From Clostridia bacterium (lineage in GTDB: Bacteria > UBA6262 > WVXT01 > JAUXBS01): a stretch of DNA of 8,579 nucleotides. The stretch spans positions 1 to 8,579 of the forward strand of contig JAUXDE010000076.1 in assembly GCA_030618495.1 (NCBI GenBank), written 5' to 3'. The translations under genes were made by a program, and so were the position numbers. The notes beneath the pieces are model-generated. The model made no database searches, was not told the origin of the DNA, and saw nothing but the letters and a program-made list of their open reading frames with translations. Of this stretch, positions 1,240-8,175 are shown piece after piece (the stretch's first letter is position 1; the number at the start of each line of letters is the position of its first letter).

Positions 1240-2577
1240 ATGGAAATGATAATTGACAAATTGACTTACGGTCCGAACGCTATAGGGCGCATTGACGGGG
1301 TTGCCGTTTTCGTGCCCGGGGCGATACCGGGCGACAGGGTTGAAGTAAAGATAACCAGGAAGATGAAGAATTACTGGATAGGCGAGGTTGAGAGTTTTAT
1401 AAAGAGGTCCGGTAAATATGTGAAAGCCCCCTGCCCGGTTTTCGAGAAGTGCGGGGGATGCCACTGGCAGAACCTTTCCTATGCGGACCAGCTTGATTGT
1501 AAACTAAGTATCGTATCCGAAACCATAGCCCACCTGGGCGGGGTCAGGGATTTCAAGGTAAGTCCTGTAATAGGGTGTAAGACGCCTTTTGGGTACCGGA
1601 ACAAGATACAGCAGCCGCTGGAATTTAGGAATGGGGAGGTGGTTTCCGGGTTTTATGAAAGGGGTAGCCACAGGATTGTCCCTGTTTCCAGGTGCATGCT
1701 TGAGATGGAGCCTGCCAACAGTATAGTGGAATACGCCCGTGAAGTCATCAAAGAACTCCGCCTGATAATTTATAATGAAAAGACCCGCAAGGGACTCTTA
1801 AGGCATCTCGTGGTAAGGTTGAGTAAGTCAGAGAAAACCGCTGTTCTTACGGTTGTAGCCACCAGGAGGTTTGAGGAGGAAAAAAAGTTTGCCTGTGCCC
1901 TCATGAAGAAGCTGCCCATGTTAAAGGGCGTCATGGTAAATGTCAACAATAGAAGGGACAACGTTATACTTGGAAAAAGTACCTGCTGTATTGAAGGGGA
2001 TGATTTTATAGTAGAAAACATCGGTCATTTGAAATTCATTGTTTCATCGGGTGCATTCTTTCAGACAAATACAGTCCAGGCGGAGGAACTCTGCAGGGTA
2101 GTGGAGTCAATGGCGGGCCTTACGGGCAAAGAAACACTGGTTGACCTTTACAGCGGGGTGGGTATGATAGGCATGTTCCTTGCGGGGAAAGCGGGGACGG
2201 TGGTATGCCTGGAAGAAAACCCCGACGCCGTAAGTGATGCCATAAAAAACGCGGGGATAAACAAGCTTGGAAACGTACAGTTCTTCGAGGGCAATGTAAT
2301 GGATGTTTTATCCGGGAAAAACGCTCTTAAAAAGGCTGAGGTGATTGTTCTTGACCCTCCCAGGCAGGGCGCGGGGGAAAAAGTGATAGGCTGGATTGAA
2401 AAGTCGCGGGCGGAAAGGGTTATTTATGTATCATGCGACCTGGGGACTTTCTGCCGGGACCTGAAGTACCTGCAAGAAGCGGGGTTTAACATGAAAACGC
2501 TTGTTCCCATTGATATGTTCCCGCAAACATACCATATCGAAATTGCGGCAAGATTTGACAGGGTAACTAAACCATGA
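1240..2577 (+). CDS. rlmD: 23S rRNA (uracil-C5)-methyltransferase, RlmD/RumA type
   Basis: The enzyme transfers a methyl group from SAM to C5 of a uracil, U1939 of 23S rRNA in the E. coli RlmD numbering. The protein has 445 residues, the normal size. An N-terminal TRAM-like RNA-binding region spans about 1-55. Four cysteines fit the [4Fe-4S] ligands of this family: C65, C71, C74 (C-x5-CGGC) and C152. The SAM-binding Rossmann core contains FFQTN (273-277), VDLYSGVGMIG (301-311) and LDPPRQG (371-377). The nucleophile is C399 in YVSCD, and the likely general base is E434 in YHIEI. All catalytic positions are present. The start is the ATG at 1240 with an ACGGGGA Shine-Dalgarno about 5 nt upstream; the ATG at 1246 is a less favoured alternative. 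The exact target (U1939 or U747) cannot be proved from the sequence. The 3' end overlaps rlmN. Confidence 0.93.
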   Translation: MEMIIDKLTYGPNAIGRIDGVAVFVPGAIPGDRVEVKITRKMKNYWIGEVESFIKRSGKYVKAPCPVFEKCGGCHWQNLSYADQLDCKLSIVSETIAHLGGVRDFKVSPVIGCKTPFGYRNKIQQPLEFRNGEVVSGFYERGSHRIVPVSRCMLEMEPANSIVEYAREVIKELRLIIYNEKTRKGLLRHLVVRLSKSEKTAVLTVVATRRFEEEKKFACALMKKLPMLKGVMVNVNNRRDNVILGKSTCCIEGDDFIVENIGHLKFIVSSGAFFQTNTVQAEELCRVVESMAGLTGKETLVDLYSGVGMIGMFLAGKAGTVVCLEENPDAVSDAIKNAGINKLGNVQFFEGNVMDVLSGKNALKKAEVIVLDPPRQGAGEKVIGWIEKSRAERVIYVSCDLGTFCRDLKYLQEAGFNMKTLVPIDMFPQTYHIEIAARFDRVTKP

Positions 2578-3620
2578 AACCTTTTATTTTTACAGGCGAA
2601 ACGTTAACGGAAGCCAGGGATTTCCTGGTATCCTGCGGCGATAAGAAGTACAGGGCGGACCAGGTTCTCCGGTGGATATATGAAAAGAACATTTTTGATT
2701 TTGATGAAATGACGAACCTGCCGAAAGCCCTGGCCTCTCTTTTAAAAAGCAGGGCGGAGACGGTTTCTGTCGCAGTTTGCGGCAAGAAAACATCAAAGAA
2801 AAACAAAACAATTAAGTACCTGTTTAAACTGAATGACGGGAACTGTATTGAATCGGTTTTTCTGCCTTATAATAAAAGGAATACCGCATGTATTTCAGTG
2901 CAGGTTGGATGCCCTCTCGGGTGCGCTTTCTGCGCTACGGGAAGACAGGGTTTTATCAGGAACCTGACGACGGATGAAATAGTGGGGCAGTTCCTGCAGA
3001 TAAACAGGGATGCGGTTATGAATAAAGCAGGCGGGGTCAGCAATATTGTTTTAATGGGCATGGGGGAACCGTTCTTGAATTATAACAATGTTATTAAAGC
3101 TCTTGATATTTTATCGGAGCCATGGGGCGCGGGCATATCACATCGCAGGATTACTGTCTCCACATCCGGTGTTGTTGCGGGCATGGACAGGTTATCAGCT
3201 GAAAAGAAACACTATAATCTGAGTATATCACTGCACAGCCCTTTTAGCGAGAAAAGAAAACAACTCATACCCCTGAATAAGAAATATTCCCTGAGAAGGC
3301 TGATGGATGCATCGGAGAGGTATATTGAAAAAACAAAAACAATGATTACCTTTCAGTATCTCTTGATAGGGGGATTCAATGATACGGTAAGTGATGCCCG
3401 TGAACTGACAGTATTGTTGAAAGGGCTCAAATGCAAGATAAATATTATAGTGTACAATAAAATATCCGGTTTACCCTTCAAGAAACCCACCGAAAAAGCA
3501 ATGGAAAGGTTCATTTCGATTTTAACCTCATCAGGAATAACCACCACACGCAGGAAGAGCATGGGTGAAGACATAGACTCCGGCTGCGGCCAGTTGAGGC
3601 AGCGGTATAGTGCTCGGTGA
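2574..3620 (+). CDS. rlmN: 23S rRNA (adenine-C2)-methyltransferase RlmN (radical SAM)
   Basis: RlmN methylates C2 of A2503 in 23S rRNA and, in several bacteria, A37 of some tRNAs. The 348-residue protein carries the radical-SAM cluster motif C113-x3-C117-x2-C120 (CPLGCAFC). It also has both mechanistic cysteines of the family: C106 in ACISVQVGC and C338 in DIDSGCGQL. GMGEP (152-156) is the SAM-binding motif. The presence of C106 and C338 in RlmN-type contexts argues against Cfr or an inactive paralogue, although the Cfr/RlmN split rests on finer features. The ATG lies in ATGA (2574-2577), so the gene overlaps rlmD by 4 nt and is probably translationally coupled to it; only a weak AGGG precedes it. 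The last three codons and the TGA stop lie within the left arm of the palindromic repeat at 3609-3766, directly after the conserved CGQLRQ tail. Confidence 0.96.
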   Translation: MKPFIFTGETLTEARDFLVSCGDKKYRADQVLRWIYEKNIFDFDEMTNLPKALASLLKSRAETVSVAVCGKKTSKKNKTIKYLFKLNDGNCIESVFLPYNKRNTACISVQVGCPLGCAFCATGRQGFIRNLTTDEIVGQFLQINRDAVMNKAGGVSNIVLMGMGEPFLNYNNVIKALDILSEPWGAGISHRRITVSTSGVVAGMDRLSAEKKHYNLSISLHSPFSEKRKQLIPLNKKYSLRRLMDASERYIEKTKTMITFQYLLIGGFNDTVSDARELTVLLKGLKCKINIIVYNKISGLPFKKPTEKAMERFISILTSSGITTTRRKSMGEDIDSGCGQLRQRYSAR

Positions 3621-3766
3621 CATAAATTACCGTTATTTTTGAGGCACTTAGCCTCCCGAAGGGCTTCGGGCTTTTGCCTGTGCTCTTGCAACACAAGCCT
3701 CACGTTGCTTCGGCGCGGCTTAAAATCCCGTAGCACAAATAACGGGAATTTATATCACAGAGCACT
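3609..3766. repeat. Palindromic MITE-like element at the 3' end of rlmN
   Basis: The left arm (3610-3638) and right arm (3737-3765) are inverted copies matching at 26 of 29 positions, extended by A3609-T3766. Inside the arms, AGCC-CCGAAG (3650-3661) can pair with CTTCGG-CGC-GGCT (3708-3720). Local hairpins occur at 3641-3655 and 3655-3670. The interior is richer in G+C than the flanks. There is no transposase ORF and no convincing target-site duplication. The left arm reaches into rlmN and supplies its stop codon. The likeliest reading is a non-autonomous, MITE- or REP-like repeat, but copy number in the genome is unknown. Confidence 0.7.
3655..3674 (+). terminator. Terminator-like hairpin downstream of rlmN
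   Basis: CCCGAAG (3655-3661) pairs with CTTCGGG (3664-3670), effectively a 6-bp GC-rich stem with a GGGC tetraloop, followed by CTTTT. It lies 35 nt after the rlmN stop, inside the palindromic element. It could end the rpmG-rlmD-rlmN transcript, although the T-run is short and the long-range fold of the element competes with it. Confidence 0.4.
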
Positions 3767-3828
3767 TAACCTGAAAGTGAATTCTTACACTATTCTCACA
3801 TTCCCATTACACCCCTATCATATACCTG

Positions 3829-3899: not shown

Positions 3900-4097
3900 A
3901 TGACCAGAAAACTTGATGTGAACCAGGCAAGGGTTGTTTTTGACGCAATGGTTGGGGAAGCATACAGGAAGCTTAACAAGTATATTATCACCAACCATGG
4001 CAAGAAAAAGGCAGTACTTATGAGCTTCAAGGAGTACGAGGCGCTTTTAGAATCAATGGAGATATTTTCAGAAGACAGGGCCGCTGTTTTAAGGTAA
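3900..4097 (+). CDS. Phd/YefM-family type II antitoxin, no adjacent toxin
   Basis: The 65-residue protein matches the N-terminal part of the Phd/YefM (PhdYeFM_antitox) family. It has an ARVVFDAMVGEAY segment, then IITNHGKKKAVLMSFKEYE, which corresponds to the family pattern I-T-n-h-G-k-p-x-A-v-l-x-s-x-x-x-Y-e. Such proteins dimerise, bind their operator DNA and neutralise a toxin through a C-terminal tail. Here the tail after the fold is short (SMEIFSEDRAAVLR), and no RelE/YoeB- or Doc-like gene follows in the next 200 nt on either strand. It may therefore be an orphan antitoxin, a pure regulator, or the partner of a distant toxin. The start at 3900 is supported by GGGAGG (3886-3891) 8 nt upstream. 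Gene length is near the short end of the family. Confidence 0.82.
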   Translation: MTRKLDVNQARVVFDAMVGEAYRKLNKYIITNHGKKKAVLMSFKEYEALLESMEIFSEDRAAVLR

Positions 4098-5188: not shown

Positions 5189-5217
5189 TTTACAAATTCC
5201 TGTTTTATTTGTATAAT
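5189..5217 (+). promoter_or_regulatory. Promoter placed for a leaderless transcript
   Basis: TTTACA (5189-5194), a 17-bp spacer and TATAAT (5212-5217) make a strong promoter. Transcription should begin 6-8 nt after the -10 box, at or beside A5224, which is the first base of the ATG of the fusion gene. Confidence 0.65.
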
Positions 5218-5223
5218 AATAGA

Positions 5224-8175
5224 ATGCTGGGTATATTAATAACAATACTGTTTTTTCTTTCGGGCGCATGCGGCCTGGTTTATGAAGTTGTGTGGCTGCG
5301 TATGCTGGGGCTCATACTGGGCTCGACCGTGTTTGCCGCAAGCACGGTTCTTTCATCTTATATGGCGGGCCTTGCGCTTGGTTCTTTTTTTTCAGGCAGG
5401 ATAATAGATAAAAAGGGCAGTCCCCTGAAAGTATTCGCCATGCTGGAAGCGGGAGTCGGTATTTCCGCGCTTATGGTACCCCTTGTATTCAGGCTGCTCG
5501 AAGGTTTTTATGCCAATATTCATTCAGTATTTCACTCCAATGCTTACCTGTTTTCGATAGTTCGGTTCATTATTTCTTTTATTGTGCTGTTGGTACCCAC
5601 GACGTTGATGGGGGCTACCCTTCCGGTGTTGAGCAGGTATTTTATAAAGAAATTCGATAACCTGGCAAACAGGTTTGGAATCCTTTACGGTATAAATACC
5701 CTCGGTGCCGTTGCCGGGTGTTTCGCGGCAGGGTTTATCCTTATAGAAAAACTCGGGGTTACCAATACAATTATATTAGCCGCCGTTATCAATATTGCCA
5801 TTGCCCTGGCAGTGTTGCTGGCAGGCAGGAATGAGCCGGTATCGGGGGATATTAAAACGAGCAGGGAGGAAGCGCGTAATCCCGTTAACTATTCCGGGGC
5901 CACGGGTACGCTTGCCCTTATTGTTATGTCCGTTTCCGGTTTTTGCGCTCTTTCTTACGAGGTGCTGTGGAGCAGGGTGCTGGTGTTCTTCTTTACGAGT
6001 AATACGTACGCGTTCAGCATGATGCTCATCATATTCCTTGCGGGGATATCAATAGGAAGTTTCGTTTTCGGCAAGCTTGCCGACAGGAGCAGGGATCCTC
6101 TTTCCATGCTGGGTATTATGGAAGTCCTTATAGGCATATTCGGGATAATGTCCGTCGTGATGTTTGCCAGGATTAATGCCATTATGGGTGATGCTTCCGG
6201 GAGCTGGGCAGGCCGGGTTGTTTCAATGCTTGCGGGCTGCGGCGCGGTGATGTTCCTGCCCGCTTTTCTTATGGGGGGCGCTTTTCCCGTTGCCGGCAGG
6301 ATTTATATTCCAGGTATAAAAAAACTGGGCGCTTCCATAGGCAACCTGTATTCCATAAATACGCTCGGGGGTATAATCGGTTCCGTAATAACCGGTTTTG
6401 TGCTTATCCCCGTTATTGGCATTCAGAAGGTTATAATATTGATTGGAATTATAAACCTGGTTATTGGCAGTGTTGTTATTATCTATAATCCCGTGGTCAA
6501 GAAGAAGAAGAAGTTATATTTTGGGTTATTTATAGGCATTGTGTTTATACTAACCGCTTTCATTCCTTCAGGTAAGCCTGTTATCCTGTACAGCCGTATA
6601 GTGCGTGATGCCTCGCGTCCCGCGAAGCTTATGTATTACAAGGAAGACATAACAGCCACCGTTTCCGTGATTGAAGTTGATGGTGACAGGAAGCTGAATA
6701 TAGACGGGTTCAATGCCGCGGGTACGAAACAGTACGAGTACATGCGCATGCTCGGCCACCTGCCGTTACTACTGTGCAGGAATCCGGAAAATGTCCTGGT
6801 ACTGTGTTTCGGTACCGGTACCACGTGCGGTTCCATATATAATCACGGGGTAAAAAGGCTTGACTGCGTGGAGATTTCACCTGCGGTTGTCGATGCCGGC
6901 AAGTATTACAGGGATTATAATTATGGTATTCTTGAAAAAGAAAGGTTTAATCTCATCGTGGATGATGGCAGGAATTACCTGCTGTATTCAGACAGGAAGT
7001 ATGATGTTATAACCACCGAACCTATGCACCCGTACCTTTCAGGCGCGGTTAATTTTTATTCAAAGGATTTTTACGAGCTTTGCAGAAAACGCCTCACCGA
7101 AAATGGAGTGATGTGCCAGTGGGCTCCCATGCATGTCCTTTCAAAGGAAGATTATAATATGGTACTGAGGACTTTTCGGGAGGTATTCCCTCATTCCACC
7201 ATGTGGTTCGTGGGTACCGAGAGTATTTTGATAGGCACCAACAAAGAGCTCAGCATTGATTTTAAAGCCCTCGAAGAGAGGCTTTCGTCGGAGGATGTGA
7301 AGAGGGACCTTGCAAAGATACATCATGACAGCGTGTACGCGATACTGGACTCGTTTGTCATGGATGAATCATCGCTTGCGGAATATACGAAGGATAGCAA
7401 GGTGATAACGGATGACAGGCCGGTTATAGAGTTTTCCGCTCCAAGGAACCTGATACTGCCTGCTTCGAAGACGTGGCTTGCCAATATTGGTGAAATCAAC
7501 AGGAGAAGGGAACGGGTTTTCCCGTTGCTTGTTAATACAGGCAATGAAACGCTGATTATAAAGGATACTCTCGAAAGGTATTTCCAGGCAACGAACCATG
7601 TAATAAAGGGCCAGGTATATTCCGGCAGGAAGCAGTCCGAATTAGTTTCTCGGGAATTCGGCAGGGCGTTTATACTGAACCCCGGGGACCGCAGGATGGA
7701 TCTCCTGGTAACCAATGAAGGCGGAAAACTGAAATACTTTTATTTTCATATGGGTGACGGGTTCAGGAAGGCGGGTAGTCCTGATAATGCTATTCTTGCG
7801 TATAAGAGGGTTCTTGAAATAGACCCGGGTTATGCCCGGGCCCATAATGGCCTTGCCCTGGCATATAATGAGAAAGGCATGTATGATGAAAGTATAAAGG
7901 AATGCCTGAAAGCAATAGAGCTTGACCCGGGGGTGGCAGCAGCGTACGGCAACCTCGGTATAGTTTATCTTAACAGCGGGTATTCCTCCATGGCGGAAGA
8001 ATCTTTCAGGAAGGCGATAAGCATAGACGCCGCTCATGCCGTTTCCCATTATTACCTTGGTATTATATACAGGGAAAAGGGGTTGCGCGATAAGGCCGAA
8101 AGGAAGTTCAAAGATGCTTTGCGGGTGAACCCGGGGTTTAAAAGGGCAAAGCAGGCGCTTGATAAAACACGTTAG
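5224..8175 (+). CDS. Fused MFS transporter-like / spermidine-synthase-like protein with C-terminal TPRs
   Basis: The 983-residue protein has four parts. Residues 1-425 hold about 12 helices in two related halves: SG-C-L-YEV-W recurs at 12-24 and 237-249, and the MFS motif-A-like loops GRIIDKKG (58-65) and GKLADRSRD (283-291) correspond. An extra hydrophobic segment at 431-450 follows KKKKK (426-430). Residues about 465-670 form a spermidine-synthase-like Rossmann domain: FGTGTTCGS (529-537), VEISP (549-553), DDGRNYL (580-586) and EPMHPYLSG (599-607). EP-x-x-P replaces the catalytic-Asp segment of true SpeE, so aminopropyl transfer is doubtful; this is typical of the fused MFS/SpdSyn family. 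TDDRPVIEF (about 730-738) is another family signature. Four TPRs span about 837-972. Function in this family is unproven. Start: ATG 5224 begins the conserved LSGACGLVYEVVW helix. No Shine-Dalgarno is visible, and the TTG at 5209 overlaps the -10 region. Confidence 0.9.
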   Translation: MLGILITILFFLSGACGLVYEVVWLRMLGLILGSTVFAASTVLSSYMAGLALGSFFSGRIIDKKGSPLKVFAMLEAGVGISALMVPLVFRLLEGFYANIHSVFHSNAYLFSIVRFIISFIVLLVPTTLMGATLPVLSRYFIKKFDNLANRFGILYGINTLGAVAGCFAAGFILIEKLGVTNTIILAAVINIAIALAVLLAGRNEPVSGDIKTSREEARNPVNYSGATGTLALIVMSVSGFCALSYEVLWSRVLVFFFTSNTYAFSMMLIIFLAGISIGSFVFGKLADRSRDPLSMLGIMEVLIGIFGIMSVVMFARINAIMGDASGSWAGRVVSMLAGCGAVMFLPAFLMGGAFPVAGRIYIPGIKKLGASIGNLYSINTLGGIIGSVITGFVLIPVIGIQKVIILIGIINLVIGSVVIIYNPVVKKKKKLYFGLFIGIVFILTAFIPSGKPVILYSRIVRDASRPAKLMYYKEDITATVSVIEVDGDRKLNIDGFNAAGTKQYEYMRMLGHLPLLLCRNPENVLVLCFGTGTTCGSIYNHGVKRLDCVEISPAVVDAGKYYRDYNYGILEKERFNLIVDDGRNYLLYSDRKYDVITTEPMHPYLSGAVNFYSKDFYELCRKRLTENGVMCQWAPMHVLSKEDYNMVLRTFREVFPHSTMWFVGTESILIGTNKELSIDFKALEERLSSEDVKRDLAKIHHDSVYAILDSFVMDESSLAEYTKDSKVITDDRPVIEFSAPRNLILPASKTWLANIGEINRRRERVFPLLVNTGNETLIIKDTLERYFQATNHVIKGQVYSGRKQSELVSREFGRAFILNPGDRRMDLLVTNEGGKLKYFYFHMGDGFRKAGSPDNAILAYKRVLEIDPGYARAHNGLALAYNEKGMYDESIKECLKAIELDPGVAAAYGNLGIVYLNSGYSSMAEESFRKAISIDAAHAVSHYYLGIIYREKGLRDKAERKFKDALRVNPGFKRAKQALDKTR

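Follow-up and report, generated by a model that had tools for sequence, protein, structure and literature searches.

A shrunken member of a mobile family of small inverted-repeat elements closes the rlmN reading frame in an uncultured Clostridia lineage

The palindrome at the 3' end of rlmN

In the window (the whole stretch of 8,579 nucleotides analyzed here), the reading frame of rlmN closes inside a strong palindrome. This raises the question of whether the palindrome is a part of the gene, a regulatory hairpin, or mobile DNA that landed at the gene end. The host genome (G000) is a MAG of 1.69 Mb with 98% completeness. We compared it with a sister genome of the same genus (G001; GenBank JAUXBS, 'Clostridia bacterium' CSMAG_2805), a cold-seep MAG that is 76% complete; the CSMAG names belong to a cold-seep catalogue (PMC10491686).

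The earlier note on this DNA described two 29-nt arms, and our comparison of 3609-3637 with 3738-3766 returned the same 26/29 inverse matches. This is the sole pair of such strength in the window, the maximum in 30 first-order Markov sequences being 22/29. When extended with a repeat tool, the top inverted repeat of the window pairs 3604-3641 with 3734-3771 over 38 nt at 84%. The nested pairing that had been reported (AGCC..CCGAAG with CTTCGG..GGCT) is also found inside the element, and for each strand the RNA fold is far more stable than that of shuffled sequences (z -7.7 and -8.9). Refinement of the limits gave an element of 156 bp at 3610-3765, compared with the 158 bp at 3609-3766 given earlier. 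The features of the locus, with F1, F2, and F3 denoting element families described below, are as follows.

2574-3620, plus strand: rlmN (Pfam RlmN_N and Radical_SAM); the element provides all or part of the final three sense codons and the stop
3608-3609, no strand: TA, left flank within rlmN; presumed left copy of a target duplication, from the consensus of 89 ends and the empty site in the sister rlmN
3610-3641, plus strand: F1 left terminal inverted repeat GTGCTCGGTGACATAAATTACCGTTATTTTTG, carrying the last rlmN codons and TGA (3618-3620)
3642-3652, plus strand: joint AGGCACTTAGC, at which a deletion fused the F1 left arm to a nested F3 right end with the 4-nt microhomology AGGC, by sequence comparison with C92a (AACCAGGCACTAAGCC)
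3648-3680, plus strand: hairpin of the F1 core TTAGCCTCCCGAAGGGCTTCGGGCTTTTGCC, resembling a terminator but with a short T run
3688-3701, plus strand: joint of the second deletion GCAACACAAGCCTC, where the F1 core meets a nested F2 right junction at CAACAC, by sequence comparison with C92a (CCCAACACAAGCCTC)
3734-3765, plus strand: F1 right terminal inverted repeat
3766-3767, no strand: TT, right flank, a one-base variant of TA; presumed mutated right TA copy, from the end consensus and the sister empty site

The encoded protein ends R-Y-S-A-R-stop (codons TAT AGT GCT CGG TGA). Element sequence begins at the G of AGT (3610), within the third-last sense codon, and supplies the TGA, in agreement with the earlier claim on the stop codon. 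The 3' end of rlmN in the sister genome, the comparison proposed at that time, reads ...RQRHIKPER-TAA without the element, and the DNA on either side of this empty site aligns at 71-79%. The sister gene has one codon more at the insertion site, which calls for the assumption of a small indel. As the sister rlmN does without the element, we rejected the palindrome as a conserved part of the gene; the window copy is one shrunken member of a mobile family.

Directly downstream, at 3900-4094 (plus strand), lies a Phd/YefM-type antitoxin gene (PF02604) that has no recognisable toxin partner adjoining and keeps its position in the sister genome. Further on, 5209-8175 (plus strand) encodes a 988-aa protein that combines MFS-type membrane segments, a spermidine-synthase-like domain, and C-terminal TPR repeats.

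A multi-copy family and its nested relatives

Full-length F1 measures about 265 bp, carries inverted ends of about 32 bp (GTGCTCTGTNNCATAAATT(A/C)CCGNTATTTTTG), and has no long ORF inside. Arm position 20 is a conserved mismatch, nearly always A on the left versus C on the right. F1 often hosts nested members of two other families, F2 (ends GTGTTGGGTAACATAAAT) and F3 (ends GTGCCTTGTTAAA), and is itself nested in a further one, F4 (ends GTGTAGTGTTACTAACAT), which occupies about 40 places in the host genome. All four families begin GTG after TA.

The window copy is best read, on sequence comparison, as a deletion derivative of a composite like C92:6358-6924. On this reading, one deletion removed the segment running from GAGGC in F1 up to AGGCAC at the nested F3 end (common AGGC), and the other removed the segment running from CAACAC in F1 up to the nested F2 right end (common CAACAC). 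The scars of the nested F3 and F2 that remain are GGCACTTAGCC and CAACACAAGCCTC, with the joints read by eye.

We located F1 at about 19 places in the host genome (8 two-ended and about 11 partial), many of them at contig ends, a position typical of repeats that break assemblies. About 10 places were found in the sister genome, giving about 29 across both. The element is thus multi-copy, whereas a single copy in the genome, with the same sequence kept as part of rlmN in relatives, would have spoken against the transposon reading of the earlier note. Four loci are empty in the sister genome, namely rlmN and three others of the element group. Other insertions, of F4, are common to both genomes at the same site (G000:C105 with G001:C208; G000:C163 with G001:C47), indicating that the insertions are of mixed age. 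A search of 58 further genomes yielded no element, the sister MAG was the sole match in a pattern scan of genome contigs, and the ends of F1 and F4 found no match in viral contigs. The elements are mobile and multi-copy, occupy differing loci in the two genomes, have conserved inverted ends, and are non-coding.

Several variations on this anatomy were observed. F1-F4 have a common internal layout, in which a motif resembling AATTCAAGG.GTGA.GAG..hairpin..TAACCGA.GAAACAACG lies near both ends in inverted orientation and a central hairpin is followed by CTTTTG; it was seen at L023, L024, L021, L022, and related F1/F4 loci. This shared subterminal motif may be a putative transposase-binding motif. 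Some F1 copies in both genomes carry, at one internal position, an extra insert of about 110 bp with strong hairpins (GGGGGAGGCAGTGACC...CCCCCATGA; L041 at G000:C106, L049 and L057 in G001). Loci L142 (G000:C139:98) and L120 (G000:C7:3446) have a common flank, with an F1 end in one contig and a tiny F4-left/F1-right hybrid remnant in the other at the same site, which perhaps reflects MAG strain variation or recombination between families.

The two arms of a copy agree with each other more than arms drawn from different copies. For F1, 235/275 positions match within copies versus 222 expected (p 0.005), and for F4, 304/350 versus 284 (p 0.0002), with the agreement concentrated at positions 5-12. 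The arm variants are thus correlated within copies, the outcome opposite to the lack of compensatory changes that the earlier note had held to be damaging. This correlation does not show selection for pairing, because subfamilies inheriting matching ends would look alike.

The same covariation of the outer arms is what pairing selection would give in a REP/BIME-like element, a palindrome that a RAYT (Y1) transposase mobilises as a single-stranded DNA hairpin, and the host genome does contain a single RAYT (Y1_Tnp) gene (L105, G000:C61:1466-1789). However, the repeats on either side of this gene are inverted TTTGGGGACACGTACCTAATT (TTTGGGGACACGTACCTAATTATT), of a separate REP-like family, and not F1-F4 ends. 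In the sister genome (76% complete), no RAYT match was found, although the elements are present. Given the foreign repeats around the RAYT gene, we rejected a REP/RAYT identity and abandoned the REP-type reading of the earlier note; movement by this route is very unlikely. A palindrome similar to the RAYT-flanking one, GGACAGACACCTATT..AATAGGTGTCTGTCC, occurs within an F1 remnant where contig C73 begins.

Target site and candidate transposases

Target statistics were compiled from 89 non-nested element ends. The two bases outside the ends are TA in 51/89, TA making up 6.5% of dinucleotides. The base before TA (-3) is C in 39/89 ends (44%), compared with 10.5% expected at TA sites (p 8e-16), and C or T in 66/89. 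G is the first base inside the end in 90-94%, and the bases outside are T in 68-75% and A in 67-78%, with C at -3 in 39-52%. The drop in conservation from 90-94% inside to 67-78% at TA places the boundary between TA and G.

Two nesting events, read by eye, show a 2-nt duplication by length: F1 in F4 (ATATGGCTT/../TGGGAGG versus uninterrupted ATATGGTTAGGAGG) and F2 in F1 (GGTATGTAA/../AAACCTC versus uninterrupted GGTATGCTCACCTC). Among two-ended copies, TA is intact on both sides in a minority only, and many have one altered side; the sister empty sites, at 71-80% identity, are too diverged for a base-exact target duplication to be read.

Tenzen and Ohtsubo reportedly found in 1991 that IS630 prefers TA within CTAG, and, as far as that account goes, our elements resemble IS630 in this preference. 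A TA target with duplication is a feature of the IS630/Tc1-mariner family in general, and ISY100, an IS630-family element, targets TA almost exclusively, with duplication of the TA (PMC2170065). The likeness ends at autonomy, as IS630 and ISY100 each have their own transposase gene. From the target site, we infer an IS630/Tc1-mariner transposase for F1-F4.

Our best explanation, with a probability of about 0.7, is that the element is a small non-autonomous DNA transposon (MITE) that a trans-acting IS630/Tc1-mariner-type transposase inserts at TA/CTAG, with stop codons rebuilt on insertion. The MITE reading of the earlier note gains from the multiple copies, the empty site in the sister rlmN, the TA flank, and the correlated arm variants. 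The element has the marks of a MITE, being short, non-coding, and multi-copy, with terminal inverted repeats and an insertional origin evident from the empty site. The transposase, supplied in trans, would recognize ends beginning GTG and move the elements by cut-and-paste into TA dinucleotides, preferably within CTAG, duplicating TA as IS630/Tc1-mariner transposases do. The window copy would have landed near the rlmN end and shrunk by the two internal deletions, before or after landing.

An IS630 transposase (PF13358) was not found in G000, G001, or four relatives from the order. No transposase ORF lies in the interval between two paired ends or on the inner side of unpaired ends, where reading inward leads into ordinary genes. 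The autonomous transposon with the same ends that the earlier note had suggested seeking was likewise not found in G000 or G001.

A MITE could also be moved by another transposase, either of the IS5 type with YTAR targets or an enzyme of some other kind. The frequent pyrimidine before TA resembles YTAR, and MITEPsy1, a MITE with such targets, duplicates CTAG/YTAA (PMC3189936). However, at both ends TA is followed almost without exception by G, and a 4-nt duplication would demand a constant CTAG, whereas the base before TA varies. The DDE_Tnp_1 transposase (PF01609) was found in neither G000 nor G001. The four-nt YTAR duplication was rejected for its misfit with the constant G, and we regard the involvement of such another transposase as unlikely, if worth keeping in view.

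Stop codons and gene ends

Using a simple ORF caller, we classified 64 of 65 insertions. In 22/64, the reading frame of a gene extends into the element, which provides the stop. The stop is the junction TA/G (the slash marking the element boundary) in 12 of these 22 and lies within the element in the other 10, rlmN among them. By similarity, the genes concerned are predicted to include rlmN, pgpA (which precedes recA), genes resembling pyrE and birA, and, in G001, one resembling efp. Where a TA/G copy has two ends, its right flank usually looks as though the stop before insertion had been TAA or TAG.

In a 168-kb background sample, chance would give TA/G at 4.6-6.4% of permissible TA sites, or at 8.5-11.6% when weighted for the observed base preference, the range reflecting the ORF cut-off. 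The test, run as 12/62 (19%), returned p 2e-5 to 5e-4 unweighted and 0.006 to 0.05 weighted; a denominator of 64 instead of 62 alters it little. TA/G stops are 2-4 times as frequent as chance predicts. The elements over-use stop codons, and the excess is largely due to the CTAG preference plus tolerance, as an element with an initial G placed after TA rebuilds TAG, and insertion on a gene stop does little harm when the element's own end supplies the new one. Under the MITE reading, landing at the TA with which a TAA or TAG stop begins would restore TAG at once. The first 37 bp or so hold stops in other frames, and landing slightly upstream of a stop would add few foreign residues, as in rlmN. 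It is also conceivable, although quite unlikely, that the F1-F4 transposase evolved to exploit stop codons, CTAG and the G start forming a self-healing TA/G, and that the arm covariation reflects hairpin recognition or maintenance by an undescribed enzyme.

The frequency of copies at gene 3' ends would also fit a functional regulatory hairpin, a terminator or mRNA stabilizer kept as such rather than mobile. The strong fold on both strands and the central hairpin followed by CTTTTG agree with this, and two weak terminator-like matches lie inside the element, versus 0.3 expected. However, the hairpin is not in the sister rlmN, a long U-tract is lacking, many copies are found upstream of genes or in the gaps between them, and nested or broken copies are numerous. 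The TA/CTAG rule would be left unexplained, and we consider this reading extremely unlikely. A putative regulatory effect is possible; for a MITE, transcription termination or mRNA stability would at most be affected incidentally. Rfam gave no match for the window at gathering scores and none for full-length copies at E 0.1, and a known RNA family was rejected on that account.

F1-F4 are a new MITE group, adding families for a poorly known uncultured lineage. The group offers a clean example of how a target rule and a first base (TA + G = TAG) make gene ends safe landing sites, and the many independent cases in one genome render this idea testable by counting. It also cautions that, in such genomes, a predicted protein may end in a C-terminal tail encoded by a transposon.

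The kind of element is already known, and the stop-codon habit has a precedent in the BOX repeats of Streptococcus pneumoniae. There, 36 copies encode a stop codon at the extreme gene 3' end (PMC3049150), supplying gene stop codons as F1 does. BOX differs in its modular boxA/B/C build and in ends related to ISSpn2, and it is not known to follow a TA/G rule. RUP, from the same species, is a MITE for which movement by IS630-Spn1 has been proposed and is likewise a small non-coding element with inverted ends, TA at insertion sites, and a strong hairpin (PMC2229807). Its sequence is different, and an IS with matching ends is known for RUP, whereas none was found for F1. MITEPsy1 of Pseudomonas syringae is another short MITE and inserts at CTAG or YTAA (PMC3189936), but with a 4-nt duplication, a relation to an IS5-family element, and other ends. 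QMITE2 of Coxiella burnetii, different in sequence and ends, is a MITE that sits at the end of the enhC gene and extends its protein (PMC5896051).
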